Source: Streptomyces sp. MUM 203J
GTDB lineage: Bacteria > Actinomycetota > Actinomycetes > Streptomycetales > Streptomycetaceae
DNA length: 64,000 nucleotides
NCBI RefSeq assembly: GCF_022414595.1
Contig: NZ_JADWYO010000002.1
Coordinates: 1-64,000 of the forward strand
Direction: 5' to 3'
Under the pieces are notes generated by a model. That model ran no database searches, was not told the origin of the DNA, and was given only the letters and a program-made list of their open reading frames with translations. Positions 48,526 through 64,000 of the stretch are shown one piece after another; positions within the stretch are counted from its first letter, which is position 1; each line of letters starts with the position of its first letter. The position numbers and the translations under genes are program-made.

Positions 48526-49551
48526 TCATAGGCCTGCCTTATGGTCGAGCAGGTTTTTCGCGCGCGTGAGATAGCCCGCCTGGAACCGGCTCTCCGCGCC
48601 GAGCAGTTCGAAGAGGTCCGCGATGTACTTGCGACAGGTGCGCAGGGATACGCCGAGCCGGCGGGCGATGGTCTCGTCCCGCATGCCCTCGCTGAGCATG
48701 GCCAGGATGGCCAGTTTGATGTCCTCGCGCACCTCGCCGTCGGGGAGTGCCGGGCTGTACGGGGTGCCCGACTGCCAGCTCCGGTCGAAGGCGGTGCAGA
48801 GGAAGGCCACGGTGGATGGGTCGCGGATCACCGCCGCACCGCCCTTGGCCTGTGTGTGCGGCAGAAAGACCAGGCGGCGGTCGAAGGCGATCATCCGGCC
48901 GAACAGCTCTGCCAGTGTGCGGACCTGGGCGCCCGCGGCGGTGGCCCGCTCGACATAGACCTGGGTGGGGGCGTGGTGGCGGGCCGTGTGCTGGTAGAGC
49001 GTGCGCATCTGGATGCCCCGCTCGATCATTGCCAGGTCCCGGACGATGGACTGCTCCAGCTCGGCGGCGGGGCGGCCGCCGCCGGGCTGGGAGGTCATCA
49101 CCTCCAGTCGGCAGGCGTTGCTGGCCTCCTCCAGCATCCCGACCACGTCGTCCAGGGACTCGACGAGTTCCAGCGGCACTGTCCTGGCGTGGTCCTGGGC
49201 GGAGTCCCCGTACAGGGCGCTGAGTGTCTCCACGGTGTCCCAGATCGAGAAGATGCCGGACAGGCGTCTTCGGAGACGGGACTCGGCCGCCGCGACCTCG
49301 GCCCCGGCCGGCTGGGGGTCGAGCGGCTTCCAGGCCCCCGGCAGTCCGGCGTCCGTGGACCTGCCGGCGGGGCCGACGGGCTGGATCAGCGGAACGGCGG
49401 CCAGCAGCTCCACGGCGCGGTCGACCCGGGCCGGAGGGAGTCCGAGGCCCAGCGCGGCCTCCTCGGCCACGAGCGTGCCGTGAGTGACGGCCCACCCGTA
49501 AACCTGGATGTCATCGGCCTGAAGGTTTTCCAGCCGAGCCATGATGTCCAT
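48526..49551 (-). CDS. LuxR-type cluster regulator (TrmB-like N-terminus, no receiver)
   Basis: 341 residues from ATG at 49551; ATG 49542 is possible. Residues 1-70 resemble a winged helix of the TrmB type (LQADDIQVYGWAVTHGTLVAEEAALGLGLPPARVDRAVELL). The middle (about 90-260) is helical, TrmB-like, with RHHAPTQVYVE. Residues about 275-335 are a LuxR helix-turn-helix (LAMLSEGMRDETIARRLGVSLRTCRKYIADLFELLGAESRFQAGYLA-like). Such regulators are common in Streptomyces metabolite clusters. Divergent from the secreted-peptide gene, 199 bases apart, so probably the switch of this NRPS cluster. Confidence 0.85.
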   Translation of the reverse strand: MDIMARLENLQADDIQVYGWAVTHGTLVAEEAALGLGLPPARVDRAVELLAAVPLIQPVGPAGRSTDAGLPGAWKPLDPQPAGAEVAAAESRLRRRLSGIFSIWDTVETLSALYGDSAQDHARTVPLELVESLDDVVGMLEEASNACRLEVMTSQPGGGRPAAELEQSIVRDLAMIERGIQMRTLYQHTARHHAPTQVYVERATAAGAQVRTLAELFGRMIAFDRRLVFLPHTQAKGGAAVIRDPSTVAFLCTAFDRSWQSGTPYSPALPDGEVREDIKLAILAMLSEGMRDETIARRLGVSLRTCRKYIADLFELLGAESRFQAGYLTRAKNLLDHKAGL

Positions 49552-49750
49552 TTTGTGGATTTTGTACACCTTTGCCTTCCCTGCATCTTCCTGTAGAGCA
49601 CCATCATGCGGGCTTGCGGGCTGGACCGCGACCCTTTCAATTCGCAATGCTTGAGGCGTGACCGAGCGGGGGAGGCGGACGTCACCCCCCGGGTCTCTTT
49701 AAGTAAGTTCATTGGATTTCGCAGAAATTCATGGAATCACGGGGGGAAAC
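49552..49750. promoter_or_regulatory. AT-rich divergent control region of the NRPS cluster
   Basis: Two AT-rich pockets (49552-49575 and 49700-49740) stand out from the GC-rich surroundings. The right one has the near direct repeat TTCATTGGAT (49708) and TTCATGGAAT (49728), exactly 20 bp apart, and the dyad ATTTC-GCA-GAAAT (49716-49728) between them. The left one has TTTTGTGGATTTTGTACA. These are candidate regulator sites and promoters for both directions. Confidence 0.5.
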
Positions 49751-49906: not shown

Positions 49907-50036
49907 GCCTTCTCCATTCCTGCGGAGGGTATCCCGCGGTAGTCGCGACATACGCGCGACAAGAGGATTCACGGCGGCGTCCGCCGTCCGCACGCCGAGA
50001 ATTCGCACGGCCCCGGTGGCCGCTTCACGCCGATGA

Positions 50037-50061
50037 CATGCCTGTCGTCAGGACAGGCATG
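50037..50061 (+). terminator. Hairpin between the peptide gene and the NRPS operon
   Basis: CATGCCTGTC (50037-50046) pairs with GACAGGCATG (50052-50061): perfect 10-bp stem, 5-base loop. A smaller hairpin, GTCGCG/CGCGAC, is at 49942-49960. Either could end the peptide transcript or attenuate reading into the NRPS genes, which start 50 bases later. Confidence 0.5.
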
Positions 50062-50110
50062 CCATCGGTGTGCCTTCATCACCTTCACCAAAACCCCAGG
50101 AGTTGATCAG

Positions 50111-50371
50111 GTGTCAGTGCTGGACGCATTCACGGAAAAGGTCGGTGTGGCTGAAATCCGCGCCCTGGTGTCGGAGGCCCTCGGCGCAGACGTCCCGGGC
50201 GACGGCTCGTTCCTCGGCCACGGAGGCGACTCCTTCCACGCGGTCCTGGTCGTCTCCCGCATCGAGGAGCGGTGGGGCGTCGAGGTCGACTTCCTCGACG
50301 TGCTCGAGTCCACGCCCGACACGCTCACCGAGACGGTGAACGCCGCACGCGCCGACCGGGAGCAGGGCTAG
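50111..50371 (+). CDS. Free-standing peptidyl/acyl carrier protein
   Basis: 86 residues from GTG 50111, with AGGAG 7 bases ahead. The phosphopantetheine site is GHGGDSFHAV, Ser in the GGDS motif near residue 40. The fold is normal: AFTEKVGVAEIRALVSEALG first, then DFLDVLESTPDTLTETV. It lies 25 bases before the first NRPS gene. It may carry a building block that is modified or delivered in trans, for example to the C-terminal condensation domain of the next protein (inference). Confidence 0.88.
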   Translation: MSVLDAFTEKVGVAEIRALVSEALGADVPGDGSFLGHGGDSFHAVLVVSRIEERWGVEVDFLDVLESTPDTLTETVNAARADREQG

Positions 50372-50396: not shown

Positions 50397-53300
50397 ATGG
50401 ACAGATCACTCTCGTACGGGCCGAGCACGCCCGTCCCGGACGATGCCACCGCCCATCACACCCTGCTGGCAGTGGCCGCGCGCACGCCGGACGCGCCCGC
50501 CCTGGGGGTCGGCGGCCGGACCGTCAGCTACCGCGAACTGGTTGCCCGAGCAAGGGCGGTGCAGGTACTGCTCCAGCGGCAGGGCGTGCGGCCCGGCACC
50601 TTCGTCCCGGTGCTGGCTCGGCCCGGCGCGGCGTTCACCGTGGCCGCACTGGGTGTGCTGCTGGCCGGTGCGGCGTACGCCGCCGTGGACCCCCGCTGGC
50701 CGGCCGAGCGGCTCGGCGGAGTGCTCGGGGACCTGCGCGCGGAACTGGTGCTCGACGCGGCCGGGGTGGGGGCGGCCTCGTACGCCGTGCCCGGCGGGGC
50801 GCGGGCCGGGGCGGGTCCGTCCGCTGTGCCGGTCGTTCGGCCGACCGACGGCGCGGTGGAACCCGACGCCCTCGGCGCGGCCACACCGCCGGGACCGGCC
50901 ACGCCCTCGGGACCGGCCGGCGCGGACGAGGTCCCGGTCCCTGTCGAGGTCGGGGCCGACTCGCCTGCCTGCGTCTTCTTCACCTCTGGTTCGACCGGTC
51001 GCCCCAAGGGCGTGGCCATCCCGCACCGCGCGATGATCCGTACCTTCCTGGACTGCGGATACGCCGAGTTCGGCCCGGACACCGTGATGCCCATGGTGGC
51101 CGCGCCCTACTGGGACGCCGGGACGCTGGAGGTCTTCGGGCCGCTGCTCAACGGCGGCTGCGCCGTCGAGGTGCCGGACGGTCTGCTCACCCCCGCGGCG
51201 CTGCGCCGGCTCATCCGGGAGGACGGGGTGAACACCATGTTCCTGACCAGCTCGCTGGTCAACCTGTTCCTGGATGAGGAGCCCGAGGCCTTCACCGGCA
51301 TCCGCCTGCTGATGACCGGCGGCGAGCGCGTCTCGCCCGCGCACGCGGCCAAGTTCCTGGCCGCGCACCCCGACGCTCGGCTCGTCAACGGCTACGGCCC
51401 GGTCGAGTCCATGGTCTTCGTCTCCTCTCACGAGGTGTCCGCGGTCGACCTCGACGCGGCCGACGGCATCCCGGTCGGCACCGCGATCCGCAACACCGTG
51501 CTGGCCGTGGCCGACCGCGAGGGCACCCTCGTTCCGGCCGGGGAGACCGGTGAACTGCTCGTCGGGGGAGACGGGCTGGCGCTCGGCTACGTCAACCGCC
51601 CCGAGGAGGACGCCAAGCGGTTCGGCACGCTGGAACTGCCGGGCCGAGGCCGCGTCCGGACGTACCGGACGGGCGACCTGGTCCGCATGACATCCGAGGG
51701 CCGTGTCTCGTACATCGGACGCGCCGACCGCCAGTTCAAGGTGCGGGGTTTCCGGATCGAGCCGGGCGAGGTCGAGCGTGTGCTGGGCCGCGTCGAGGGA
51801 GTCAAGGAGTGCTTCCTGATCCCGCTGCGCACGGAGGGCGGCACCGTGACCGGTACGGTCTGCGCCTACACCGCCGAGGCGGGGCACGCCCTTCCCGCCT
51901 GCGAGCTGCGACATGTCAGCGAGGGGCTGCTGCCCTCCCACCTGCGGCCCGACCGGTTCGTCCGCCTGGACGCGCTGCCGCTCGGGCCGACCGGCAAGGC
52001 CGATCTGCGGGCCGTCGAACGGCTCGTCCGCCCGGCCGCCGAGCGGAATCCGTCGGTCGGCGACGACGGAAGCCCGGTGCTGCGGGCGGTACGGGCGATC
52101 CTCGGCGTGCCCGCACTGAGCGAGGACGACGATCTGCTCGCCCACGGCGCCAACTCGCTCCAGGTGCTGCGGATCGCGGCCCGGCTCTCCGCCCTGCTGG
52201 ACGTCGAGTTCTCGGCGCGTGACGTGTACCGGCACAGCAGTGTCCGGGGCCTGGAGCGTCTCGCCCGGACCCGTCCTGGGCGCACGGCCCCGGCGGCCCC
52301 GGCGGACAGCGGGCAGCTCTCCCCGGGCGAGCGCAGGTTCTGGATCGCTGAGCGGCTCGCTCCCGGCGCGCCCGGCCATGTGGCGATGAGCCGCGTCGAG
52401 ATCTCCGGGAGGGTCGACCCGGAACGGCTTCACCGGGCGCTGTCGGCGGTCGTCGCCGCACACCCGGCGCTGCGCACGACCTTTCCCCTCCACCGGGGGC
52501 GACCGCGCCGCGCCGAGTCCGCCGACGCCACCCTGCCGCTCCTCGTCCGCCGCTCGGCCGCGGGCTGGAGCGGCTGCGCCGAACTGACGGACGAGCTGGC
52601 GGCGGTCGTACACGATCTGGAGGGCGGGCCACTGCTCGCGGCGGGTCTGCTCTCGGAGTCCGACGACCGGCACACCCTGCTGATCGCCGCCCACCACGCG
52701 GTGTACGACGCGCATTCGGAGCGGGTGCTGCTCACCGACCTGGCGGCGGCCTGGGCGGGTGAGGCGCTCGCGCCCGCCCCCGCACCACCGGCCGCCCCGC
52801 CCGCGAGCGCCGCGCGCGACCGGGCGTTCTGGCAGGCCGAACTCGCCGGCGTCGAACCGCTGGCGTTGCCCGCACCCGCCCCGTCCATGCGCGCGCTGTG
52901 GACCAGTCCCGTGGACGAGCGGCCGTTCCCGCTGCCCGCCGACACGGGTGTACGACTCCGAGCGGCGGCCCTGCACCATCGCACTCCCGCACTGACGCTG
53001 CTGGTCGCCGCCTGGTGGCGGGCGCTGTCCGCCTGGACCGGGCAACTCGACGTCACCATAGGCACGGTGGTCGCGGGCCGCGACCCCGCGTACGAACGGA
53101 CGATCGGCTATCTGGCCAACGGTGTCCCGGTACGGGTCTCGGGACACCCCGGAGCCGAAGGCACCGAACTGGTCGGCCTGGTCGGGGAGCGGCTGCTGCG
53201 GGCCTTCGACCATGCCGCGCTGCCCACGGACGAGATCGCCGCCCTGGCGCCCCGCCCGAAGGACGGCCGGATGCCGCTCTACCAGACCGTGCTCGCCCTC

Positions 53301-53528
53301 CAGCGAGTCGGCGCGCCGGTACGTCTCGGGGAGGCCGTCCTGCGGCCCCGGCCCGCGCCGCCGCTCGGCCCGCAGGCGGAACTCGTCTGCGAGCTGTGGG
53401 AGGACGGCGACGAGCTGACAGGGGCCCTGCACACGCCCGCCGGGCTGCTGCCGCCCGGGACCGGCGCCCTGCTCACCGAACTCTTCACATCCGAGCTGCA
53501 CACCCTGCTCACCAAGGACCAGACATGA
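50397..53528 (+). CDS. NRPS, domains A-T-C
   Basis: 1043 residues from ATG 50397, ribosome binding site weak. Adenylation domain 1-545: TSGSTGRPKG (A3), YWDAGTLEVFGPLLNGG (A4), NGYGPVES (A5), YRTGDLVR (A7), FKVRGFRIEPGEVE (A8), LPLGPTGKADLRA (A10). Pocket residues by my manual alignment: D-A-L-F-M-G-G-V-F-K, hydrophobic, not assignable. Carrier domain with Ser587 (HGANSLQVL). Condensation domain about 640-1035 with HHAVYDA at 766-772, the usual final Gly of HHxxxDG being Ala. No N-terminal condensation domain, so it looks like the loading protein. It overlaps the next gene by ATGA. Confidence 0.92.
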   Translation: MDRSLSYGPSTPVPDDATAHHTLLAVAARTPDAPALGVGGRTVSYRELVARARAVQVLLQRQGVRPGTFVPVLARPGAAFTVAALGVLLAGAAYAAVDPRWPAERLGGVLGDLRAELVLDAAGVGAASYAVPGGARAGAGPSAVPVVRPTDGAVEPDALGAATPPGPATPSGPAGADEVPVPVEVGADSPACVFFTSGSTGRPKGVAIPHRAMIRTFLDCGYAEFGPDTVMPMVAAPYWDAGTLEVFGPLLNGGCAVEVPDGLLTPAALRRLIREDGVNTMFLTSSLVNLFLDEEPEAFTGIRLLMTGGERVSPAHAAKFLAAHPDARLVNGYGPVESMVFVSSHEVSAVDLDAADGIPVGTAIRNTVLAVADREGTLVPAGETGELLVGGDGLALGYVNRPEEDAKRFGTLELPGRGRVRTYRTGDLVRMTSEGRVSYIGRADRQFKVRGFRIEPGEVERVLGRVEGVKECFLIPLRTEGGTVTGTVCAYTAEAGHALPACELRHVSEGLLPSHLRPDRFVRLDALPLGPTGKADLRAVERLVRPAAERNPSVGDDGSPVLRAVRAILGVPALSEDDDLLAHGANSLQVLRIAARLSALLDVEFSARDVYRHSSVRGLERLARTRPGRTAPAAPADSGQLSPGERRFWIAERLAPGAPGHVAMSRVEISGRVDPERLHRALSAVVAAHPALRTTFPLHRGRPRRAESADATLPLLVRRSAAGWSGCAELTDELAAVVHDLEGGPLLAAGLLSESDDRHTLLIAAHHAVYDAHSERVLLTDLAAAWAGEALAPAPAPPAAPPASAARDRAFWQAELAGVEPLALPAPAPSMRALWTSPVDERPFPLPADTGVRLRAAALHHRTPALTLLVAAWWRALSAWTGQLDVTIGTVVAGRDPAYERTIGYLANGVPVRVSGHPGAEGTELVGLVGERLLRAFDHAALPTDEIAALAPRPKDGRMPLYQTVLALQRVGAPVRLGEAVLRPRPAPPLGPQAELVCELWEDGDELTGALHTPAGLLPPGTGALLTELFTSELHTLLTKDQT

Positions 53529-56500
53529 CCGAGACGTTCGTCGACGGCGCCACCGCCACAGGTGACGCTGAGACCTTCCCGCTCTCCTTCACCCAGGAGC
53601 GGATGTGGGTCGAGGAACAGCTGCGGCCGGGCGGCACGGCGTACCACATGCCGGTGATCTCCCGGGTCGCAGGACCACTCGACCCGGACGCCCTGCGGCG
53701 CGCGGTCGGCATCCTGGCCGGCCGGCACTCCGCTCTGCGCACGGTGTTCAGCGACGTGGACGGGGCGCCCGTGCAGCGGGTCCTGCCCGCCGTCGAGATC
53801 CCGGTGGCCACGCGGGACGTGCGGGCCCTGCCGGATGCCGAGGCGGCCGGGAGGGCCGCCGTACTGGAGGAGGCCCGGCGGCCGTTCGACCTGGGCCGGG
53901 GTCCGCTGCTGCGGCTGCTGGCCGTCCGCGTCGGCGACAACGAGCATCTCCTTGTCGTGACGGCCCACCATCTCGTCTTCGACGGGGCCTCCTTCGGGCT
54001 GTTCTTCGTCGAGCTGGCAGAGGTCTACGAGGCCGTTCTGTCCGGTGCCGACACCGAACCTGCCCCGGCAGCCAGGCAGTTTCCGGACGCGGTACGCGAT
54101 GAGGAGGCGCAGCTCACCGACGAGGCGGTGGAGGGGCTGCTCGACTGGTGGCGTACCTACCTGGACGGGGCGCCCCGCACGCTCGACCTGCCGGCCGACC
54201 GTCCCCGGAGCACGGACGCCGGGAGCCGGACCGGCGCCCAGCGGCGCCGTCTGCTCGGTGCCGGGATCAGTGCCGGAGTGCGCGCGCTGGGGCGCGAGCA
54301 CGAGGCCACCCTGTTCATGACCATGCTGACCGCCTTCGGTGTCGTGCTCTCGCGGCAGGCCGGGCAACGGGATCTGCTGATCGGTACGCCGGTCTCCAGC
54401 CGCCGGGCCGGGGAGCGGCGGGCCCTCGGCTGCTTCCTCAACTCCCTTCCTGTGCGCCTCGACCTCACGGAGGGGCCGTCCTTCGCGCAGCTCCTCGACC
54501 GCGTCAAGCGCAGCGCGCTGGAGGCCTTCGCACACCAGCGGGCGCCCCTCCAGCGGCTGGGCGCCGACCGTGCCCCGGGCTTGGGCGGTGGCGGCCTGGT
54601 CCAGGTCTTCTTCAACGTGCTGCCGCCGGTGGCCCCGCTCGACCTTCCGGGCTGCGCGGTCGAACAACTGCCGTTCCCCGAGATCGACAGCAAGTTCGAT
54701 CTGACGCTGTACGTCTCCGTGGAGGGCGGACGGCTGGGGCTCGAAGCGGTGTACGACGCCGAGCTGTTCCTGCCGGAGCGGATCGACGACCTGCTGGAGC
54801 AGATCGAACTGGTGCTGGCCCAGGCGGTCGACGACCCCGGCCGGCCGGTCGGTGAGCTGGCGCTCGCCACCGGGCGGACCGCCGCGCTCATGCCCGGTCT
54901 CGGTACCGAACTGCCTGCCGGGTACCCCGGCTCGGTCCTTGAACGCCTGGCCGCGCACGCGCACCTCCGGCCCGAGCGGGCCGCGCTGGTCGGGGCGGGG
55001 CGCGTGTGGACGTACGGGGACCTTGTCGCCCGGGCCGAGCTGGTCGCGGAGCGTCTGGTCGCCGAGGGGGTGCGCCCCGGGGACGTGGTGGCGGTGCTGG
55101 CCGCACGGCATCCGGCGGCGGTGGTGGCGGTGCTGGCGGCGATGCGGGCGGGGGCGGCGTTCGCGTTGCTGGACGCGGAGTATCCGGCGCCGGAGCTCGC
55201 GCGGCGCGCGGCCGAACTGCGGCCCGCCGCGTGGATCGGCGCCGCGCCGGGGCGGGGCGTGGCCCCGTTCATGACAGGTCCGTTCGTCTCCGGCCTGGAC
55301 GAGGCGGATCCGGCCCCTGGCCCGTCCCTTCCCGCCCGCACCGAAGTGCTCGGGACGCCGGACGGGCTCGGCGCGCGTCCCCGGCCCTCTGCCGACGACC
55401 TCGCCTACGTCGCCTTCACCTCCGGCACCACCGGCCGCCCCCAGCGCGTTCTGGGCGGCCACGGGCCGCTCGCCCACTTCCTGCACTGGTACACCGAGAC
55501 GTTCGGCGTCACTGCCGAGGACCGGTTCTCGGTGCTGTCGGGGATCGGCCACGACCCCTTCCTGCGGGATGTGCTGGCGCCGCTGTGGGCCGGGGCCGCG
55601 GCGGTGTTCCCCGACGTGGACCCCCGCGACACCGAAGGGCTCGCGGAGGCGCTGCGGCGGGACGGGATCACCGTCACCCACCTGACCCCGGCTCTCGGCG
55701 CGGCGCTGGCCGCCGCCGACGGGGTGGGCTGGCCCTCCCTGCGCCTGGCCGGTTTCGGGGGAGACACGCTCACATACCGCACCGTCCGGGAGTGGGCCGC
55801 CCTCGCGCCAGGCGCGGACCTGCTCAACCTGTACGGCGCGACCGAGACGCCCCAGGCGGTCTCGGTCCACGTGGTCAGGCGGGGCGGCGACAGCGCCCCG
55901 GACGGCCAGGGGCGGGTGCCGCTCGGGGCCGGGATCGACCAGGTGCAGCTGCTGGTGGCGACCGGTGACCAGCCCGCCGCCATCGGGGAGCCGGGTGAAC
56001 TCGTCGTCCGGACACCCCACCTCGCGCGCCGCGCCGAGGGGGCTGACCGCAGCGGTTTCGCCACGCTCGGCTTCGCGGCGGGACCCGTCTACCGAACCGG
56101 CGATCTCGCGCGGCTGCGCCCGGACGGGCTCTTCGACCTCCTCGGGCGGGCCGACGACCAGGTCAAGGTACGCGGCTTCCGGGTCGAGCCGGCCGAGATC
56201 GAGGCGCTGCTGGCTGCCCGGCCCGAGGTGCGCCAGGCCGTCGTGCTCGCCGTGCCAGATCGGCACGGCGGCGCCCGCCTGGTCGGCTACCTCGCCACCG
56301 GAGGCGTGCGCCCCGACCTGGCACTGCTGCGCGAGGAGCTGGCCGCGCGGCTGCCGGAGTACAAGGTGCCGTCCTCGTTCGTGGTGGTCGACGAGCTGCC
56401 GCTGACCGCGAACCGCAAGCCCGACCGGGCCGCCCTGCGCTCCCTCGGCAGGGAGGAGGAGTCGGCGGTCGGCGGGTACGTCGCCCCGTCCGGCCCGGTG

Positions 56501-59500
56501 GAGGAGCGGCTGGCCGCGATCTGGCGGGAGGTGCTCGGGCGGGAGCGGATCGGCGCGCTGGACGACTTCTTCGCCCTCGGCGGGCACTCGCTGCTGCTCG
56601 GCCAGGTGCTGGTACGCGTCCGCCGCTCCCTGGGCGCCGAACTGGCCCTGCGCGACCTCTTCCAGCACCCCACGGTCGCCGCGCTCGCCGCGCTGATCCA
56701 ACGGTCGGGACCGGCCGCGGGAGCCGTTGAGGCCGAGGAGCCCGTACCACTGGGTGAGGAAGGAGCTCCGGCGCCGCTGTCCTGGACGCAGGAGCGGCTG
56801 TGGCTGGAGGAGCAGCTCCGGCCCGGCGACGCCGCGTACAACATGCCGATGGTGCTCCGGGTGCGCGGGCCTCTGGACCTCGCGGCCCTGCAGGGCGCGG
56901 TCGACGCCGTGGTGCAGCGGCATGCCGTCCTTCGTACGGGCTTCGCCCTGGCCGACGGCGGGCCCGTGCAGCGGGTCACCCCCGGAGCCCGGGTCACCGT
57001 GCGCGAGGCGGATCTTCGCCGTGCCCAGGACCCGGGTTCGGCCGCGCTGGCCGAGGCGATGGCGGAGACCAAGCGGCCCTTCGACCTCTCCGCCGGTCCG
57101 CTGATGCGGGTGCTGGTGGTGCGCGACGGGGAGGGTGAGTGCCTGCTCGTTCTGACGCTGCATCACATCGTTTTCGACGGGTGGTCCTTCGGTGTTCTCC
57201 TCGACGATCTCTCGCTGGCATACGCTGCCTGCCGCGCCGCCGCCGGCGACGGCCCCGCCCTGCCCGCCTCCAACCCCGGGCTGCAGTTCTCCGACGTCGC
57301 ACGCTGGCAGCGGGCCCGGCTCGACGGGGAGCCGCTGGACGAGCTGGTCGCCTGGTGGGTCCGGCAGCTCGCCGGTGTGCCGACCGTGCTCGAACTCCCG
57401 ACCGACCGGCCCCGCCCGGCCGTCCAGACCCACCGCGGCGCCCGTCACCGGATCGTGATCGAAGCGGACCTGGCGCAGCGGCTGCGCGCACTGTCCCGGC
57501 GGCGGGGCGGCACGCTGTACATGACCCTGCTGTCCGCCTTCGGCGTCGTACTCTCGCGCTACACCGGCCAGGAACGGCTGCTGGTCGGCACTCCGGTCGC
57601 CAATCGGGAGCGTGCCGAGTTCGAGGACCTGGTGGGCTGCTTCCTCAACACCGTGCCCATCGCCCTCGACCTGCGAGGGGAGCCGGCGTTCGGGGAACTC
57701 CTCCAGCGGGTGACCGACAGCTCCCTGGCCGCCTTCGCCCACCAGAACGTGCCGTTCGGCCGGCTGGTGGCCGAACTGGCCCCGGAGCGCGACCTGTCCC
57801 GCAGCCCACTCGTCCAGGTGTTGTTCGCCCTGCAGAACGTCCGGCTGGGCGCCTTCGAGGGGCAGGGCGTGTCCAGCGAGCTGGTCGAGGTCTCCGAGGC
57901 GAACAGTCAGTTCGACCTGAACCTGCGGATGATGGACACCGGCGACGAGATCCTCGGCTGGCTGGACTACGACACCGATCTCTTCGACGCCGCGACCGTC
58001 GCCCGGCTGGCCGGACACCTCACCCATGTGCTCGGCGCCGTGGCCGACGACCCGGCCACGCCGGTGAGCGGGGTCGACCTGCTCGGCCCGGCCGAGCGGC
58101 AGCAGGTGGTGCACGCGTGGAACAGCACCGCCGCGGGGTGGGGGCTGGAGCGCACGCTCACCGCTCTGCTGGAGGAGCAGGCCGCGCGCGCCCCGGGGCG
58201 GACCGCCGTGAACTGCGGCGGGCGGCAGCTGAGCTACGCCGGGCTGCACCGGCGGGCCAACCGGCTGGCCTGGCGGCTGCGCGAGCTGGGGGTGGGCCCC
58301 GACGTGGTCGTCGGCGTGCATCTTGAACGTTCGGTCGAGCTGATGGTGGCCCTGCTCGCCGTACTCAAGGCGGGCGGCGCCTATCTGCCGCTCGATCCCG
58401 GTTACCCAGCCGAGCGGCTGAAGTTCATGCTGGCCGACGCCCGGGTGCCGGTGCTGCTTGCCGGGGCGGGGGCGGAGGCATCCTCGCTCGCGAGCGACGG
58501 GATGACCGTCCTCGTGGTGGACGCCGACGAGCCCGCGGACGACGAGCGTGCCGCGCACCCGCCGACCCCTTCGGCCGGGCCCGCCCATCTCGCCTACGTG
58601 ATCTACACCTCGGGCTCCACCGGCCGTCCCAAGGGCGTCCAGGTGCCGCACCGGGGCATCGTCAACCGGCTGCTGTGGATGCAGGACGCCTACCGGCTCG
58701 ACCGCGGCGACACGGTACTCCAGAAGACGCCGATCAGCTTCGACGTGTCGGTCTGGGAGCTGTTCTGGCCGCTGCTGGCGGGGGCCCGCATGGTTCTCGC
58801 GGAGCCTGGCGGGCACCGCGACCCCGGCTACCTCGCAGAGCTGATCCGGGACGAAGGGGTGACCGTCTGCCACTTCGTACCGCCGATGCTGGACACCTTC
58901 CTGTCCGCCGCGCCCGCCGAGCGGTGTACGTCGCTGCGGCTGGTGGTGTGCAGCGGCGAGGCCCTGCCGGCCGACCTGGCCCGGCGCTTCCACCGGGTCC
59001 TCCCGGCAGCCTCACTGGAGAACCTGTACGGCCCCACCGAGGCGTCCGTCGACGTGACCCGCTGGTCCAGCCGTCCGGACTGGGACCGGCCGAGCGTGCC
59101 GATCGGCGGGCCGATCGCCAACACGCGGGTGTATGTGCTGGACCGCCGCATGGCACCCCTGCCCATCGGGGTTCCCGGCGAACTGTATCTGGGAGGCGTC
59201 CAGTTGGCCCGCGCCTACGGGGGCAGGGCCGATCTGACCGCCGACCGGTTCGTGCCGGACCCGTTCTCCGCGTCCGGCGCCCGCCTCTACCGCACCGGCG
59301 ACCTCGCCCGCTGGCGGGCGGACGGCACGGTGGAGTACCTGGGCCGTATCGACCACCAGGTGAAGGTACGCGGCTTCCGCATCGAACTCGGGGAAATCGA
59401 GGCGGCGTTGGCGGAGCAGCCAGGCGTCGGTCAGGCCGTGGTGATCGTCCGGGAGGACGAGCCGGGCGAGCGCAGGATCGTCGCCTACCTCACGCCTGAG

Positions 59501-60058
59501 GGCGGTGCCGCGCCCGGGCCCGCGGCCGACTGCGCTTCCGGTGCCGTGGCCGGTACGGACCCCGCGTGCCGTCCCACCGCCGTACCCGGCCGTGCAGCCC
59601 TGCGCGCCGGTCTCGGGCGACTGCTGCCCGAGCACATGGTGCCGAGTGCCTTCGTCACCCTGGAGCGGCTGCCGCTGAGCCCCAACGGCAAGGTGGACCG
59701 CCGGGCCCTGCCCGCACCCGAGCGGGAACGCCCTTCGGACACCGACTGGACCCCACCCCGCACCGGAACCGAGCGGCGGCTGGCCGCCATCTGGCAGCGC
59801 GTGCTGCGCCTGGACCAGGTCGGCGCCACCGACAACTTCTTCGAGATCGGCGGCGATTCCATGCATGCCGTCCGGGTCGTCGGGCTCGCCCGCGAGGAGG
59901 GGCTCGACATCCCGCTGACCGAACTCTTCGCCCACCAGACGGTGGAAGCGGTGGCCGCCTGGCTGGCCTCCCGCACCGAAGCGGTGTGGGAGCGGCGCCG
60001 GGTCTCCGCCTTCGGGCTGCTGTCCCCGGAGGACCTGGCCAAGCTCCGCGCCAAGTAA
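53525..60058 (+). CDS. NRPS, domains C-A-T-C-A-T
   Basis: 2177 residues from ATG 53525, overlapping the previous stop by 4 bases. C1 active site HHLVFDG (148-154). A1 (about 455-940) is divergent: its P-loop reads SGTTGRPQRV where TGxPKG is usual, and A4 reads GHDPFLRD; pocket D-P-R-H-G-G-L-Q-A-K, unassigned. T1 Ser1022 (GGHSLLLG). C2 HHIVFDG (1213-1219). A2 is normal, A4 FDVSVWELF (Asp1740); pocket D-V-W-H-V-S-L-V-D-K, close to known Ser codes (EntF type). T2 Ser2112 (GGDSMHAV). No epimerase, methylase or thioesterase domain. Confidence 0.95.
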   Translation: MTETFVDGATATGDAETFPLSFTQERMWVEEQLRPGGTAYHMPVISRVAGPLDPDALRRAVGILAGRHSALRTVFSDVDGAPVQRVLPAVEIPVATRDVRALPDAEAAGRAAVLEEARRPFDLGRGPLLRLLAVRVGDNEHLLVVTAHHLVFDGASFGLFFVELAEVYEAVLSGADTEPAPAARQFPDAVRDEEAQLTDEAVEGLLDWWRTYLDGAPRTLDLPADRPRSTDAGSRTGAQRRRLLGAGISAGVRALGREHEATLFMTMLTAFGVVLSRQAGQRDLLIGTPVSSRRAGERRALGCFLNSLPVRLDLTEGPSFAQLLDRVKRSALEAFAHQRAPLQRLGADRAPGLGGGGLVQVFFNVLPPVAPLDLPGCAVEQLPFPEIDSKFDLTLYVSVEGGRLGLEAVYDAELFLPERIDDLLEQIELVLAQAVDDPGRPVGELALATGRTAALMPGLGTELPAGYPGSVLERLAAHAHLRPERAALVGAGRVWTYGDLVARAELVAERLVAEGVRPGDVVAVLAARHPAAVVAVLAAMRAGAAFALLDAEYPAPELARRAAELRPAAWIGAAPGRGVAPFMTGPFVSGLDEADPAPGPSLPARTEVLGTPDGLGARPRPSADDLAYVAFTSGTTGRPQRVLGGHGPLAHFLHWYTETFGVTAEDRFSVLSGIGHDPFLRDVLAPLWAGAAAVFPDVDPRDTEGLAEALRRDGITVTHLTPALGAALAAADGVGWPSLRLAGFGGDTLTYRTVREWAALAPGADLLNLYGATETPQAVSVHVVRRGGDSAPDGQGRVPLGAGIDQVQLLVATGDQPAAIGEPGELVVRTPHLARRAEGADRSGFATLGFAAGPVYRTGDLARLRPDGLFDLLGRADDQVKVRGFRVEPAEIEALLAARPEVRQAVVLAVPDRHGGARLVGYLATGGVRPDLALLREELAARLPEYKVPSSFVVVDELPLTANRKPDRAALRSLGREEESAVGGYVAPSGPVEERLAAIWREVLGRERIGALDDFFALGGHSLLLGQVLVRVRRSLGAELALRDLFQHPTVAALAALIQRSGPAAGAVEAEEPVPLGEEGAPAPLSWTQERLWLEEQLRPGDAAYNMPMVLRVRGPLDLAALQGAVDAVVQRHAVLRTGFALADGGPVQRVTPGARVTVREADLRRAQDPGSAALAEAMAETKRPFDLSAGPLMRVLVVRDGEGECLLVLTLHHIVFDGWSFGVLLDDLSLAYAACRAAAGDGPALPASNPGLQFSDVARWQRARLDGEPLDELVAWWVRQLAGVPTVLELPTDRPRPAVQTHRGARHRIVIEADLAQRLRALSRRRGGTLYMTLLSAFGVVLSRYTGQERLLVGTPVANRERAEFEDLVGCFLNTVPIALDLRGEPAFGELLQRVTDSSLAAFAHQNVPFGRLVAELAPERDLSRSPLVQVLFALQNVRLGAFEGQGVSSELVEVSEANSQFDLNLRMMDTGDEILGWLDYDTDLFDAATVARLAGHLTHVLGAVADDPATPVSGVDLLGPAERQQVVHAWNSTAAGWGLERTLTALLEEQAARAPGRTAVNCGGRQLSYAGLHRRANRLAWRLRELGVGPDVVVGVHLERSVELMVALLAVLKAGGAYLPLDPGYPAERLKFMLADARVPVLLAGAGAEASSLASDGMTVLVVDADEPADDERAAHPPTPSAGPAHLAYVIYTSGSTGRPKGVQVPHRGIVNRLLWMQDAYRLDRGDTVLQKTPISFDVSVWELFWPLLAGARMVLAEPGGHRDPGYLAELIRDEGVTVCHFVPPMLDTFLSAAPAERCTSLRLVVCSGEALPADLARRFHRVLPAASLENLYGPTEASVDVTRWSSRPDWDRPSVPIGGPIANTRVYVLDRRMAPLPIGVPGELYLGGVQLARAYGGRADLTADRFVPDPFSASGARLYRTGDLARWRADGTVEYLGRIDHQVKVRGFRIELGEIEAALAEQPGVGQAVVIVREDEPGERRIVAYLTPEGGAAPGPAADCASGAVAGTDPACRPTAVPGRAALRAGLGRLLPEHMVPSAFVTLERLPLSPNGKVDRRALPAPERERPSDTDWTPPRTGTERRLAAIWQRVLRLDQVGATDNFFEIGGDSMHAVRVVGLAREEGLDIPLTELFAHQTVEAVAAWLASRTEAVWERRRVSAFGLLSPEDLAKLRAK

Positions 60059-60095: not shown

Positions 60096-63000
60096 ATGAC
60101 CCACGGCGACATCGTCGACGCCTATCCGCTGACCAGGCTCCAGTCCGGCATGCTGTTTCACAGCCTGCTCGACGGGGACACCCCGACGTACCACGACATC
60201 TCCACCATCCGGCTGTCCGGCCGCTTCGACGAGGCCCTGCTGCGCGAGGTGCTGGCAGGCGTCATCGCACGCTCCGACATGCTGCGCAGCAGCATCGACC
60301 TGACGGGCTTCAGCCGGCCGATGCAGCTGGTGCACGAGGCCGTGCCTACCCCGCTGACCGTCGAGGACCTGCGCGGACTGCCGGACGACGAGCAGCGGCG
60401 CCGGGCCACCCGGTGGACTGCAGCCGAGAAGGCCACTCCCTTCGACCTCGCCGTCGCCCCGCTGCTCAAGCTGCACGTCCAGGTCTTCGCGGACGACGAC
60501 TTCCAGCTGAACCTGAGCTTCCACCACGCGATCCTGGACGGCTGGAGCCTGTCCCTGGTGACCTCGCAGCTTCTCACCGGCTACGACGCGCAGCTGGCCG
60601 GCCGTCCGGACCCGGCCGCCGCGCCCGTCACCCGCTTCCGCGACTACCTCGCACTGGAGCAGGAGGCCCTGGACTGCCCGGAGTCCAAGGACTTCTGGGC
60701 CCGTACCCTGGCCGGCACCGAGTTCACCGGTCTGCCGCGCTTCGAGGAACCCGGCCTCGCCCCCGAGCGCAGCGCCCGCGTGTACGAGGTGCCGCTGCCC
60801 GACGGTCTGACGGACGGGCTGCGCGCGGCAGCCGCCCAGGCGAAGGTGCCGGTCAAGGCGGTGATGTTCGCCGCGCACGCCCGGGTCCTCGCGCTGCTGT
60901 CCGGCTCCACGCGCGTGGTGACCGGCCGGGTCAGCAACGGCCGTCCGGAGACCGCCGACGGGGACCAGGTCGTCGGCCTGTTCCTCAACACCCTCCCGCT
61001 GACCGCGGATGTGGCCGGGGTGAGCTGGATCGAGCTGGCCCGGCAGATCCACCGCCAGGAGAGCGACGCGCTGGCGCACCGCCGCTACCCGATGGCCCAG
61101 CTCCTTCAGGACCTGGAGCGTCCCGAACTCTTCGAGACGGTGGTGGACCACCGCAGCTTCCGCAGCTACGACATGGCGCTCGACGGGATCGCCGTCAGCG
61201 GGGGCGAGTTCTTCGAGCAGACCAACTTCCCCTTCACCGCCAATTTCGCCACCGATCCGGCCACCGGAGAGGTGAAGCTTCGCTTCAACTACGACGCGGC
61301 GCAGTTCTCCGCCGGGCGGATCACCGAGATCGGCGGCCACTACACGGCCGCGCTGTCGGCCCTGGTGACCGACCCGGCCGCCCCGGCGCAGGCCGCCGGG
61401 CTGCTGGGCGAGGACCAGGTCGCCCGGCTGGAGGCCGCGTGGCGGGACAGCTTCGTGGAGCGCGCACCGGGCCGGACGCTGCCCCAACTGCTCGCCCGGC
61501 GCGCCGCCGAGACGCCCGAGGCCGTCGCGCTGCGCAGCGGAGACACTGCGCTGACCTTCGCGGAGCTGCACACTCGGTCGAACCGGCTGGCCTGGCACCT
61601 GCGCGACCTGGGCGTCGGGCCGGACACCCTCGTCGGGGTGCACCAGGCCCGCTCGTCCGAGCTGATCGTCAGCCTGCTCGCGGTACTCAAGGCCGGTGGC
61701 GCGTATGTGCCGCTGGACCCCGGTTACCCCGCCGAGCGGCTGGAGTTCATGCTGGCCGACGCCGAGGTGGCGGTGCTGCTGTGCGACTCGGGGCTCGCCG
61801 GGACGCTGGACGCGGCGGGAGCCGTCGTCCTGGCCGTGGACGCGGACACCGCGGCGGACCGCCCGGCGGAGGCGCCGCCGCTGGAGGTGACACCGGACCA
61901 CCTGGCGTACGTGATCTACACCTCCGGCTCCACCGGCCGTCCAAAGGGCGTGCAGATCCCGCACGGCGCGTTGCTCAACCTGCTGGAGTCCTTCGCGCGC
62001 GACCTGGAGATCACCGACCGGGACCGGCTGCTCGCCGTCACCTCGCTGTCCTTCGACATCGCGGGCCTTGAGGTGTACCTGCCGCTGCTGGCCGGGGCCG
62101 AGCTGATCCTGGCGCCCGACATCGCCGTCGACGGACCGCGCCTGCGCGCGTACCTGGAGGGCAGCGGCGCCACCCTCATGCAGGCCACGCCGTCGAGCTG
62201 GCGGCTGCTCGTGGAGGCCGGACTGAAGGCCGACCCGGAGCTGCGGGTGATCTCCGGCGGCGAGGCGCTGCCGGGCGACCTCGCGGCGGAGCTGACCGCA
62301 CGCTTCCCGGTGGTGTGGAACGCGTACGGCCCGACCGAGACCACCATCTGGTCCTGCCTCCAGCGCGTGCTGCCCGAAGCGCCCGTCACGCTGGGCGGCC
62401 CGATCGACAACACACGGGTGTACGTCCTCGATGAGGGCTACGGACTGGTGCCCGACGGCGTCCCCGGCGACCTCTACATCGCCGGCGACGGACTGGCGCG
62501 CGGCTACCTCGGCCGGGCCGACCTGACCGCCGACCGCTTCCTGCCGGACCCGTTCGCCGCCCCGTCCGGCGCGCGCATGTACCGCACCGGTGACGTGGTG
62601 CGCCGACTGCCGTCCGGCGAGCTGGAGTTCCTCGGCCGCTCCGACCACCAGGTCAAGGTCCGCGGCTTCCGGATCGAGCTGGGCGAGATCGAGTCCGTGC
62701 TGGCCCGGCACCCCGGCGTCGGCCGGGTCGTGGTCGTCGCCCGCGAGGACCGGCCCGGTGACAAGCGGCTGGCCGCCTATCTGACTCCCGAGGGCGAGGC
62801 CGCCCCGGACGCGGCCGACCTGCGCGCGGCGGTCGCCGCCGGGCTGCCGGACTACATGGTGCCGAGTGCGTTCGTGGTGCTGGACGCCTTCCCGCTCACG
62901 CCGAACGGCAAGGTCGACCGCAACAGGCTGCCCGCGCCGGGCCGTGAGGAGACGAGCGCGCGGGAGTACGTGGAGCCGCGCACCGCGACCGAGCGGGCGC

Positions 63001-64000
63001 TCGTGGAGATCTACCGGGACGTGCTCGGGGTGGAGCGGGTCGGCGTCACCGACGCGTTCCTGGAGCTCGGCGGTAACTCGATCTCCGCGCTGCGGGTGAT
63101 CATGCGGCTGCCGGAGATCACCGACACCGAAGTGCCCGTGGCGGCCCTGTTCGAAGGCGGCACTGTCGAGCGGATCGCCCGGATCATCGACGGCGAGCAG
63201 CAGATGGACGGCGGTGTGGTGGTGCCGCTGCGCACCTCGGGCAGCAGGCCGCCGGTGTTCTTCGTCCACCCGCTCGGCGGCAGCGTGTTCAGCTATGCCG
63301 AGCTGGTCGAGGCGCTCGACCCGGAACAGCCCTTCTACGCGGTCCAGGCTCCCGAGTACGCGGGCCCGGACGTGCCGCGTCCGGGCAGCGTCGAGGAGAT
63401 CGCCGCGCTGTACCTCGCCGAGATCCGGAAGATCCAGCCCGAGGGGCCGTACTACCTCGGCGGCTGGTGCATGGGCGGCATGGTCTCGTACGAGATGGCC
63501 CGCCAGCTCCAGGCCGCGGGCGAGCAGGTCGGGATGCTGACCATCGTCAGCGCGAGCATCGACGACCCGGTGCCGCCCCGGTACGTGACCTCCGAATCCG
63601 CCGCGATCCTCGGCGCGTTCGGTCACAAGCTGCCGACCACCGAGGAGGAGCTGGAGGCGCTCGACGAGGAGAGCCGCCTCCGGCACGTCATCCGGCTCAC
63701 CCGGGGGACCGACGACGAGCGCGCCGACGCCGCAACCGTCGAGGACCTGCGGCGGCTCGTCAGGCTGTACCAGCGGCACGCCCGTGCGCTGATCACCTAC
63801 CGGGACACTCCGCGCGAGCCGTTCCGCGGTGACGTCCTGCTGATCCGCGCGGAGACCGAGCTGTTCACCGGCTGGGACTTCGGCTGGAAGCAGCGGGTGG
63901 ACGGCCGCCTGCTGATCGACGAGTCGCCCGGCAACCACTTCTCGATGCTGGAACAGCCGAACGTCCCCAAGGTCGCGTCCCGCATCGAGGCGGCCGCCGC
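60096..64000 (+). CDS. NRPS, domains C-A-T-TE (3' end outside window)
   Basis: ATG 60096 with GAGAGGA upstream; open to the window edge, about 1301 residues seen. C domain with LQSGMLFHSLLDGD near the start and HHAILDG (143-149). A domain with TSGSTGRPKG (about 609) and FDIAGLEVY (Asp654); pocket D-I-L-Q-I-G-A-I-W-K, Gly-like. T domain Ser995 (LGGNSISAL). Thioesterase from about 1045, with FFVHPLGGSVFSY, then LGGWCMGGMVSYE where Cys1125 takes the nucleophile position (GxCxG, not GxSxG), and a candidate catalytic His1281 (GNHFSML). It ends the assembly line and releases the peptide, perhaps by cyclisation. Confidence 0.94.
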   Translation, partial: MTHGDIVDAYPLTRLQSGMLFHSLLDGDTPTYHDISTIRLSGRFDEALLREVLAGVIARSDMLRSSIDLTGFSRPMQLVHEAVPTPLTVEDLRGLPDDEQRRRATRWTAAEKATPFDLAVAPLLKLHVQVFADDDFQLNLSFHHAILDGWSLSLVTSQLLTGYDAQLAGRPDPAAAPVTRFRDYLALEQEALDCPESKDFWARTLAGTEFTGLPRFEEPGLAPERSARVYEVPLPDGLTDGLRAAAAQAKVPVKAVMFAAHARVLALLSGSTRVVTGRVSNGRPETADGDQVVGLFLNTLPLTADVAGVSWIELARQIHRQESDALAHRRYPMAQLLQDLERPELFETVVDHRSFRSYDMALDGIAVSGGEFFEQTNFPFTANFATDPATGEVKLRFNYDAAQFSAGRITEIGGHYTAALSALVTDPAAPAQAAGLLGEDQVARLEAAWRDSFVERAPGRTLPQLLARRAAETPEAVALRSGDTALTFAELHTRSNRLAWHLRDLGVGPDTLVGVHQARSSELIVSLLAVLKAGGAYVPLDPGYPAERLEFMLADAEVAVLLCDSGLAGTLDAAGAVVLAVDADTAADRPAEAPPLEVTPDHLAYVIYTSGSTGRPKGVQIPHGALLNLLESFARDLEITDRDRLLAVTSLSFDIAGLEVYLPLLAGAELILAPDIAVDGPRLRAYLEGSGATLMQATPSSWRLLVEAGLKADPELRVISGGEALPGDLAAELTARFPVVWNAYGPTETTIWSCLQRVLPEAPVTLGGPIDNTRVYVLDEGYGLVPDGVPGDLYIAGDGLARGYLGRADLTADRFLPDPFAAPSGARMYRTGDVVRRLPSGELEFLGRSDHQVKVRGFRIELGEIESVLARHPGVGRVVVVAREDRPGDKRLAAYLTPEGEAAPDAADLRAAVAAGLPDYMVPSAFVVLDAFPLTPNGKVDRNRLPAPGREETSAREYVEPRTATERALVEIYRDVLGVERVGVTDAFLELGGNSISALRVIMRLPEITDTEVPVAALFEGGTVERIARIIDGEQQMDGGVVVPLRTSGSRPPVFFVHPLGGSVFSYAELVEALDPEQPFYAVQAPEYAGPDVPRPGSVEEIAALYLAEIRKIQPEGPYYLGGWCMGGMVSYEMARQLQAAGEQVGMLTIVSASIDDPVPPRYVTSESAAILGAFGHKLPTTEEELEALDEESRLRHVIRLTRGTDDERADAATVEDLRRLVRLYQRHARALITYRDTPREPFRGDVLLIRAETELFTGWDFGWKQRVDGRLLIDESPGNHFSMLEQPNVPKVASRIEAAA

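Follow-up and report, generated by a model that had tools for sequence, protein, structure and literature searches.

The nonribosomal peptide synthetase (NRPS) gene that closes the window, by which we mean the whole 64,000-nucleotide stretch of Streptomyces sp. MUM 203J DNA analysed here, encodes a thioesterase (TE) that is a true cysteine thioesterase with a relocated catalytic acid, which is probably a glutamate. The reading that we favor, and hold to be fairly likely, is that of a type I NRPS release domain resembling AB3403, in which the acid of the triad would have moved to Glu1255 and from which a chain ending in -Ser-Gly would leave by ordinary release. The main interest of this TE family lies in the apparent separation of the acid shift from strained-ring chemistry.

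The thioesterase domain and its nucleophile

The synthetase, NRPS-C, is a 1311-residue protein of C-A-T-TE layout whose A domain carries a Gly code. Its full open reading frame occupies 60096..64031 on the forward strand (60096..64000 in the window) and ends 31 bases beyond the window, in the next stretch of the contig. Pfam recognizes Condensation, AMP-binding, PP-binding, and Thioesterase domains in that order. PP-binding covers residues 968–1030 and the PF00975 match residues 1053–1299 (6e-35, 121.9 bits against a cut-off of 26.4); in other words, the TE is C-terminal and fused behind a carrier protein. In a search of the organism's own genome the same type I domain lies at 63252..63992 on the forward strand (124.1 bits, cut-off 26.4), and the TE runs on to 64028, beyond the window. 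Its AF2 model has a mean pLDDT of 82.4 and a pTM of 0.83.

The nucleophile is Cys1125, encoded by TGC at 63468..63470 of the forward strand and in frame within the reading frame. The first-pass annotation had read this codon as the center of a G-W-C-M-G elbow, and it is indeed the elbow residue of the PF00975 domain (GGW-C-MGG, motif GWCMGG). The alignment places the cysteine in the elbow column, and no serine was found elsewhere in the role of nucleophile. The histidine that the annotation saw in GNHFS is His1281 (CAC, 63936..63938, forward strand), invariant as H243 in an eight-row alignment (A2). Its remark that the acid is away from the usual place is also borne out: acid position I holds Ser1152 (AGC, 63549..63551, forward strand), 27 residues after Cys1125 within IVSASIDD and invariant in A2 (S114). 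The spacing from Cys1125 to Ser1152 is that of Cys1146 and Gly1173 in ObiF1, and is also as in AB3403. Asp at position I is usual for type I TEs, not universal, since ObiF1 and SulM do without it, and the present domain belongs with type I TEs by both fold and clade despite its Ser.

Cysteine thioesterases had been called rare. They are uncommon, but not very rare, as a Cys elbow occurs in 4/56 non-family TEs from seven Streptomyces genomes, a hand count with one further ambiguous row, made in genomes chosen as family carriers and covering about half of their 115 non-family PF00975 matches. The organism's own genome holds another TE with a Cys elbow, a type II-like one with FGHCLGAQ (L074, C26:48800-50100).

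Position of the catalytic acid

A candidate acid, which the first-pass annotation had left unnamed, is Glu1255 (GAG, 63858..63860, forward strand), in RAETE after strand beta7. In the alignment it falls in the column for position II, where type II TEs have their Asp; it is invariant in A2 (E217) and follows strand 209–214 of the AF2 model by three residues. The predicted triad is Cys1125-His1281-Glu1255 with its acid at position II, the place that the acid takes in type II TEs, ObiF, and SulM. Glu1255 would take the role of acid because position I is Ser1152.

TEs from the same genomes provide a context for this assignment. Most type I TEs there have Asp at position I, and the type II TEs have mostly Ser at position I and Asp at position II. 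Of 66 TEs that do not belong to the family, those without Asp at position I have an acid at position II in 27/29 cases and those with it in 6/37 (Fisher 2.6e-10, uncorrected for descent), a contrast confounded by descent because most position II acids fall in one type II clade. When one column of slack is allowed, the figures become 28/29 and 20/37. The two positions behave as if they could substitute for each other. Glu at position II without Asp at position I occurs, among the 80 rows used for this count and for the tree below (14 family rows and the 66 others), in this family only. Fourteen duplicate stretches were left out of the alignment of same-genome TEs, and the 80 rows leave out L098, L100, and L085, which are poorly aligned or odd, and L118, which equals L070. 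Two rows (L116 and L018) show no His in the His column, perhaps through local misalignment.

An alternative is an acid in the loop after position I, the triad then being that of a slipped position I. Asp1157, five residues after position I, is a candidate for it in that it too is invariant in A2 (D119), and the neighboring Asp1156 is another. However, Asp1156 is replaced by Glu in the most distant family member (L028, 52% identical), and the residue of ObiF1 in its place, Asp1177 (31 after the Cys), could be changed to Ala with product kept at wild-type levels (PMC6668435). Glu1255, moreover, is just as invariant as Asp1157 and shares its column with the Asp that type II TEs have at position II. 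We therefore regard an acid in the loop as unlikely and retain Glu1255. The Asp of a GWD motif was also considered as the acid and ruled out, as several relatives have His there (GWH).

Conservation and distribution of the family

The TE family comprises 12 distinct loci, our own and 11 relatives, with TE identities of 52–91%, and the relatives are found in Streptomyces and Kitasatospora. The nucleophilic Cys, the Ser at position I, the Glu at position II, and the His are identical in 14/14 family rows, which represent 12 distinct places by coordinates since two are repeats (L119 equals L011, L120 equals L014); one further locus (L022 in G244, 77% identity) stands outside these residue counts. 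Because the four residues are the same in every row, the layout is due neither to chance nor to a sequencing error, and an error at the TGC codon in particular is ruled out by the Cys in all 14 rows. A full-length NRPS-C and its cluster are kept in several genomes.

The genome searches scored only the best few candidates in each sampled genome, such that absence there is not proof. Matches, our own genome included in each case, occur in 6/293 genomes of an order-level sample (best 8 candidates per genome), in 7/392 of a genus-level sample (best 6), in 4/200 of a sample of the taxonomic family (best 12), and, at 1e-35, in 5/396 of a phylum sample (best 6). One of the four matches in the taxonomic family is a distant domain with a Ser nucleophile and Asp (L121). 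The best 6 candidates from each of the 396 phylum-sample genomes yielded no further family member. Five other domains listed from that sample all have Asp at position I; four of them carry Ser, including one encoded by our own genome, and the fifth, L116, has Cys elbows. A search for relatives returned six loci at 76–90% and two more at 33–35%, and tblastn of the TE against plasmids returned 421 records, all below 60% identity.

The gene cluster and the chain that reaches the thioesterase

The cluster consists of a regulator, a free carrier protein, NRPS-A, NRPS-B, NRPS-C, and an MFS exporter, together with a luciferase-like monooxygenase, a solute-binding protein, a stand-alone A domain, and an ATP-grasp protein, the gene for which occurs, among the regions compared, in our own, G342, and L011 only. 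The regulator, of LuxR/GerE type, lies at the cluster edge (48526..49647, reverse strand; Pfam GerE 5.8e-06) and has counterparts at 46–51% in G260, G478, and G149. The carrier protein (50033..50371, forward strand, start uncertain; PP-binding 1.1e-07) precedes the NRPS genes in 6/7 relatives with upstream DNA (G342, G260, G478, G149, G504, and L015, not G322). The monooxygenase at L009:5759-6892 belongs to the MupA/Atu3671 family of flavin monooxygenases (TIGR04020, 5.5e-144) and is kept with the NRPS genes; it was not found in the G322 region examined. Our literature search found no paper that pairs a luciferase-like monooxygenase with ATP-grasp, none on Atu3671, and none on a cysteine thioesterase together with a nonribosomal peptide. 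One copy of the cluster (L015:5958-10804, Streptomyces sp. JH14) is decayed or misassembled: its NRPS-A has shrunk, everything between an interior point of the Ser A domain and the final residues of the last carrier protein is deleted, and most of the genes farther downstream have been lost.

Pfam domains and specificity codes, the latter extracted with GrsA numbering, describe the assembly line. NRPS-A (50397..53528, forward strand) is A(DALFMGGVFK)-T-C, and NRPS-B (53516..60058, forward strand, start approximate) is C-A(DPRHGGLQAK)-T-C-A(DVWHVSLVDK)-T. The C domain ending NRPS-A meets the C domain starting NRPS-B (53400–53600), and this junction, the free carrier protein at 50033–50371, and the stand-alone A domain (L009:9106-10641) suggest that a residue is inserted in trans. 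The peptide would then have five residues in all, because the free carrier and the stand-alone A domain would fill the C-C gap. Linear gramicidin synthase heads the PDB matches of the stand-alone A domain, among which are also 8k4r and 6akd, the last of which we take to be IdnL7. That enzyme activates Gly, Ala, or Ser (PMC11253843).

The code of NRPS-A reads DALWMGGVFK in three relatives and DALWLGGVFK in two, and DALWMGGVFK is reported to be common to A domains for L-allo-Ile (PMC13122637). The first A domain of NRPS-B (about 55500–56300), which loads the residue that we call X, has an unusual code, DPRHGG[LM]QAK, together with GHDPFLRD at the A4 site, and the relatives read retain these. The literature search on codes found neither DPRHGGLQAK nor DPRHGGL, and tblastn of this domain against plasmids gave relatives of about 40–44% with no named product listed. 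The G322 cluster has EPRHGGYQAK at the X position; its upstream modules are different, but in its Ser and Gly codes and in its TE residues it agrees with our own cluster. This divergent cluster (L028, G322:C16:690000-725999), whose first gene is C-A-methyltransferase-T by eye, likewise ends in Ser, Gly, and a Cys TE.

The last A domain, that of NRPS-C, has the code DILQIGAIWK, which we take to be a Gly code, just as we take DVWHVSLVDK to be one for Ser, and DILQ[IV]GAIWK is found in 11/11 regions in which this domain was read (our own and 10 relatives), L015 having lost it. An A. baumannii synthetase of AB3403 type has the Gly-type code DILQLGVVWK; no A domain was found ahead of the TE of L018. 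In DhbF a Trp, itself bonded to Gln, closes the pocket for Gly (PMC11253843); the two residues would correspond to Trp331 and Gln278 of the NRPS-C code. By these codes the last A domain is predicted to load Gly, and Cys1125 would carry a chain ending -X-Ser-Gly. The first-pass annotation was right about a Ser-incorporating module upstream of the TE, but this module is the penultimate one, the last carrying the Gly code.

Kinship and probable independent origin of the acid shift

The nearest solved protein by sequence is AB3403 (2.1e-35 in a single search, 6.3e-44 in a profile search), which is also nearest by fold, being the first Foldseek match and, in a further fold comparison, reaching Z 28.2 (rmsd 2.5, 252 aligned, 32% identity). 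In the latter ObiF1 ranks 41 (Z 22.0, rmsd 2.9, 227 aligned, 17% identity). Sequence searches with the TE domain gave no ObiF or SulM row at E<=0.001 (single) or E<=0.01 (profile). SulM is absent by name from the best 50 fold matches listed, which is no evidence of a different fold.

A FastTree phylogeny of the 80 rows (250 columns, midpoint-rooted, computed without an ObiF or SulM sequence) recovers the family with support of 1.0. Its neighbors in the type I clade are AB3403, several further Cys TEs, and a single Ser TE (L108), and the type II TEs lie far away; the sister relation to AB3403 itself has support of 0.28 only. Section 9 of PMC11298585 places ObiF and SulM among the type II TEs. 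Given these two placements, the acid shift in our family looks independent of that in ObiF and SulM. AB3403 has Asp at position I plus Glu at position II, and since loss of the Asp from such a protein would give the layout of this family, it is a plausible intermediate on the path to a relocated acid.

Release of the chain

We propose that the peptidyl chain would pass from the last carrier protein to Cys1125, and that Glu1255, at position II in the loop that follows strand beta7, would orient His1281. The chain would then leave either through hydrolysis, which gives an acid ending in -Ser-Gly, or through ring closure when an amine attacks, and no four-membered ring would be formed on the way. 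We give hydrolysis about an even chance; macrocyclization is doubtful, transfer to an external amine unlikely, and a small strained or otherwise unusual ring improbable.

AB3403 was crystallized with Gly, its preferred substrate (PMC5376624). Production of Ac-505 requires A1S_0114, a neighbor gene in the AB3403 operon, and this product is described with C-terminal glycines, which fits plain release; against this count the non-standard linkage and the Cys-Gly part that are also reported for it (PMC5376624).

Compared with an oxoester, a thioester to Cys is more favorable to amines and to strained rings, and the C1146S variant of ObiF1 yielded only hydrolysed acid (PMC6668435); one would not at once expect a cysteine at this site to serve hydrolysis. 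The first-pass annotation thought an unusual release conceivable (lactone, lactam, or another), with reference to the Cys TE of obafluorin synthesis and its strained beta-lactone. The predicted layout resembles that of ObiF1 and SulM, with Cys, a position I that lacks Asp, and a position II acid, here a candidate Glu; PMC11298585 reports such a layout for ObiF1 and SulTE alone of the NRPS TE structures that it compares. There is also a Ser in the chain, by its code. Glycine, however, has no side chain and no beta-nucleophile; if the Gly code found in 11/11 regions is right, the last residue offers no way to a beta-lactone or beta-lactam. Sequence searches returned neither ObiF nor SulM by name at the thresholds given above, the motif is Trp-Cys-Met instead of Gln-Cys-Asn with Glu as the acid, and no sulfotransferase occurs among 20 neighbor proteins scanned, a set that does not include every reading frame. 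On the grounds of the Gly code and the kinship with AB3403 we set the beta-lactone or beta-lactam reading aside, and a strained-ring TE of the ObiF or SulM kind seems to us very improbable.

Macrocyclization is a special case of ordinary release, in which the N-terminus or the side chain of X or Ser would attack the Gly thioester. The N-terminus is probably free, because NRPS-A begins with an A domain, and thioesters favor attack by amines. A similar X-Ser-Gly tail recurs in the divergent G322 cluster, so the TE may recognize the tail. On the other hand AB3403, the nearest characterized relative, appears to be tied to an acyl-glycine product, which leaves ring closure doubtful, as graded above. 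We think it unlikely that the family is a third independent NRPS TE lineage with a position II acid whose Cys-His-Glu triad carries out, in place of hydrolysis, an unusual closure of the X-Ser-Gly chain, be it to an oxazolone through the preceding amide oxygen or to a ring through X. Finally, a TE altered in both nucleophile and acid might be degenerate, or retained for proofreading with product release lost, and one relative (L015) does have an internally deleted cluster. Against this, the elbow, His, and Glu are kept in 14/14 family rows, the genes are full-length and the cluster is kept in several genomes, and no other thioesterase occurs among 23 cluster and neighbor proteins scanned; we consider loss of release most improbable and keep to an AB3403-like Cys TE with ordinary release of a -Ser-Gly chain.

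Comparison with known systems

Section 4 of PMC11298585 proposes, from the two enzymes ObiF and SulM, that an acid moved to position II aids the closure of four-membered rings. This family appears to have moved its acid separately, and behind a predicted Gly module, where a terminal four-membered ring is impossible. Should both the triad and the glycine be as predicted, the acid shift accompanies something other than beta-lactone or beta-lactam chemistry, and genome mining that takes "Cys plus position II acid" as a mark of strained rings must also consult the terminal A domain. AB3403, acidic at both sites, offers a testable path for the move of a triad acid.

AB3403 (Acinetobacter baumannii, PDB 4zxh/4zxi) shares with NRPS-C the C-A-T-TE layout, a Gly-type A domain, a Cys elbow (GWCFGG), and Glu at position II, but it keeps Asp at position I where Ser1152 stands here, is 32% identical, and belongs to another gene cluster. 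The ObiF1 TE, which makes the beta-lactone of obafluorin, is alike in using Cys, in having a position I without Asp, and in placing its acid at position II (PMC6668435), whereas that acid is Asp rather than Glu, its substrate a beta-hydroxy amino acid where a Gly code is found here, and its fused MbtH-like domain is absent from NRPS-C. The SulM TE of the beta-lactam sulfazecin likewise has a Cys nucleophile and a position II acid (PMC11298585). It differs in its Gln-Cys-Asn motif (here Trp-Cys-Met, or Trp-Cys-Leu in L028) and in a Dap code where we read one for Gly, and none of the 20 neighbor proteins scanned here is a sulfotransferase. Type II TEs such as RifR and RedJ also lack Asp at position I and have an acid at position II; unlike our family, they have Ser as a rule, are free-standing, form a separate clade, and use Asp, not Glu. 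The cyanobacterial Cys TEs L112 and L017 belong to the same broad clade and have a GWCYGG elbow, but retain Asp at position I. They sit behind A domains with the code [VG]DWIIS[LF]ANK, which we take to be close to that for beta-alanine. This family, AB3403, and the two cyanobacterial domains together hint that type I Cys TEs often stand behind residues without a side chain.
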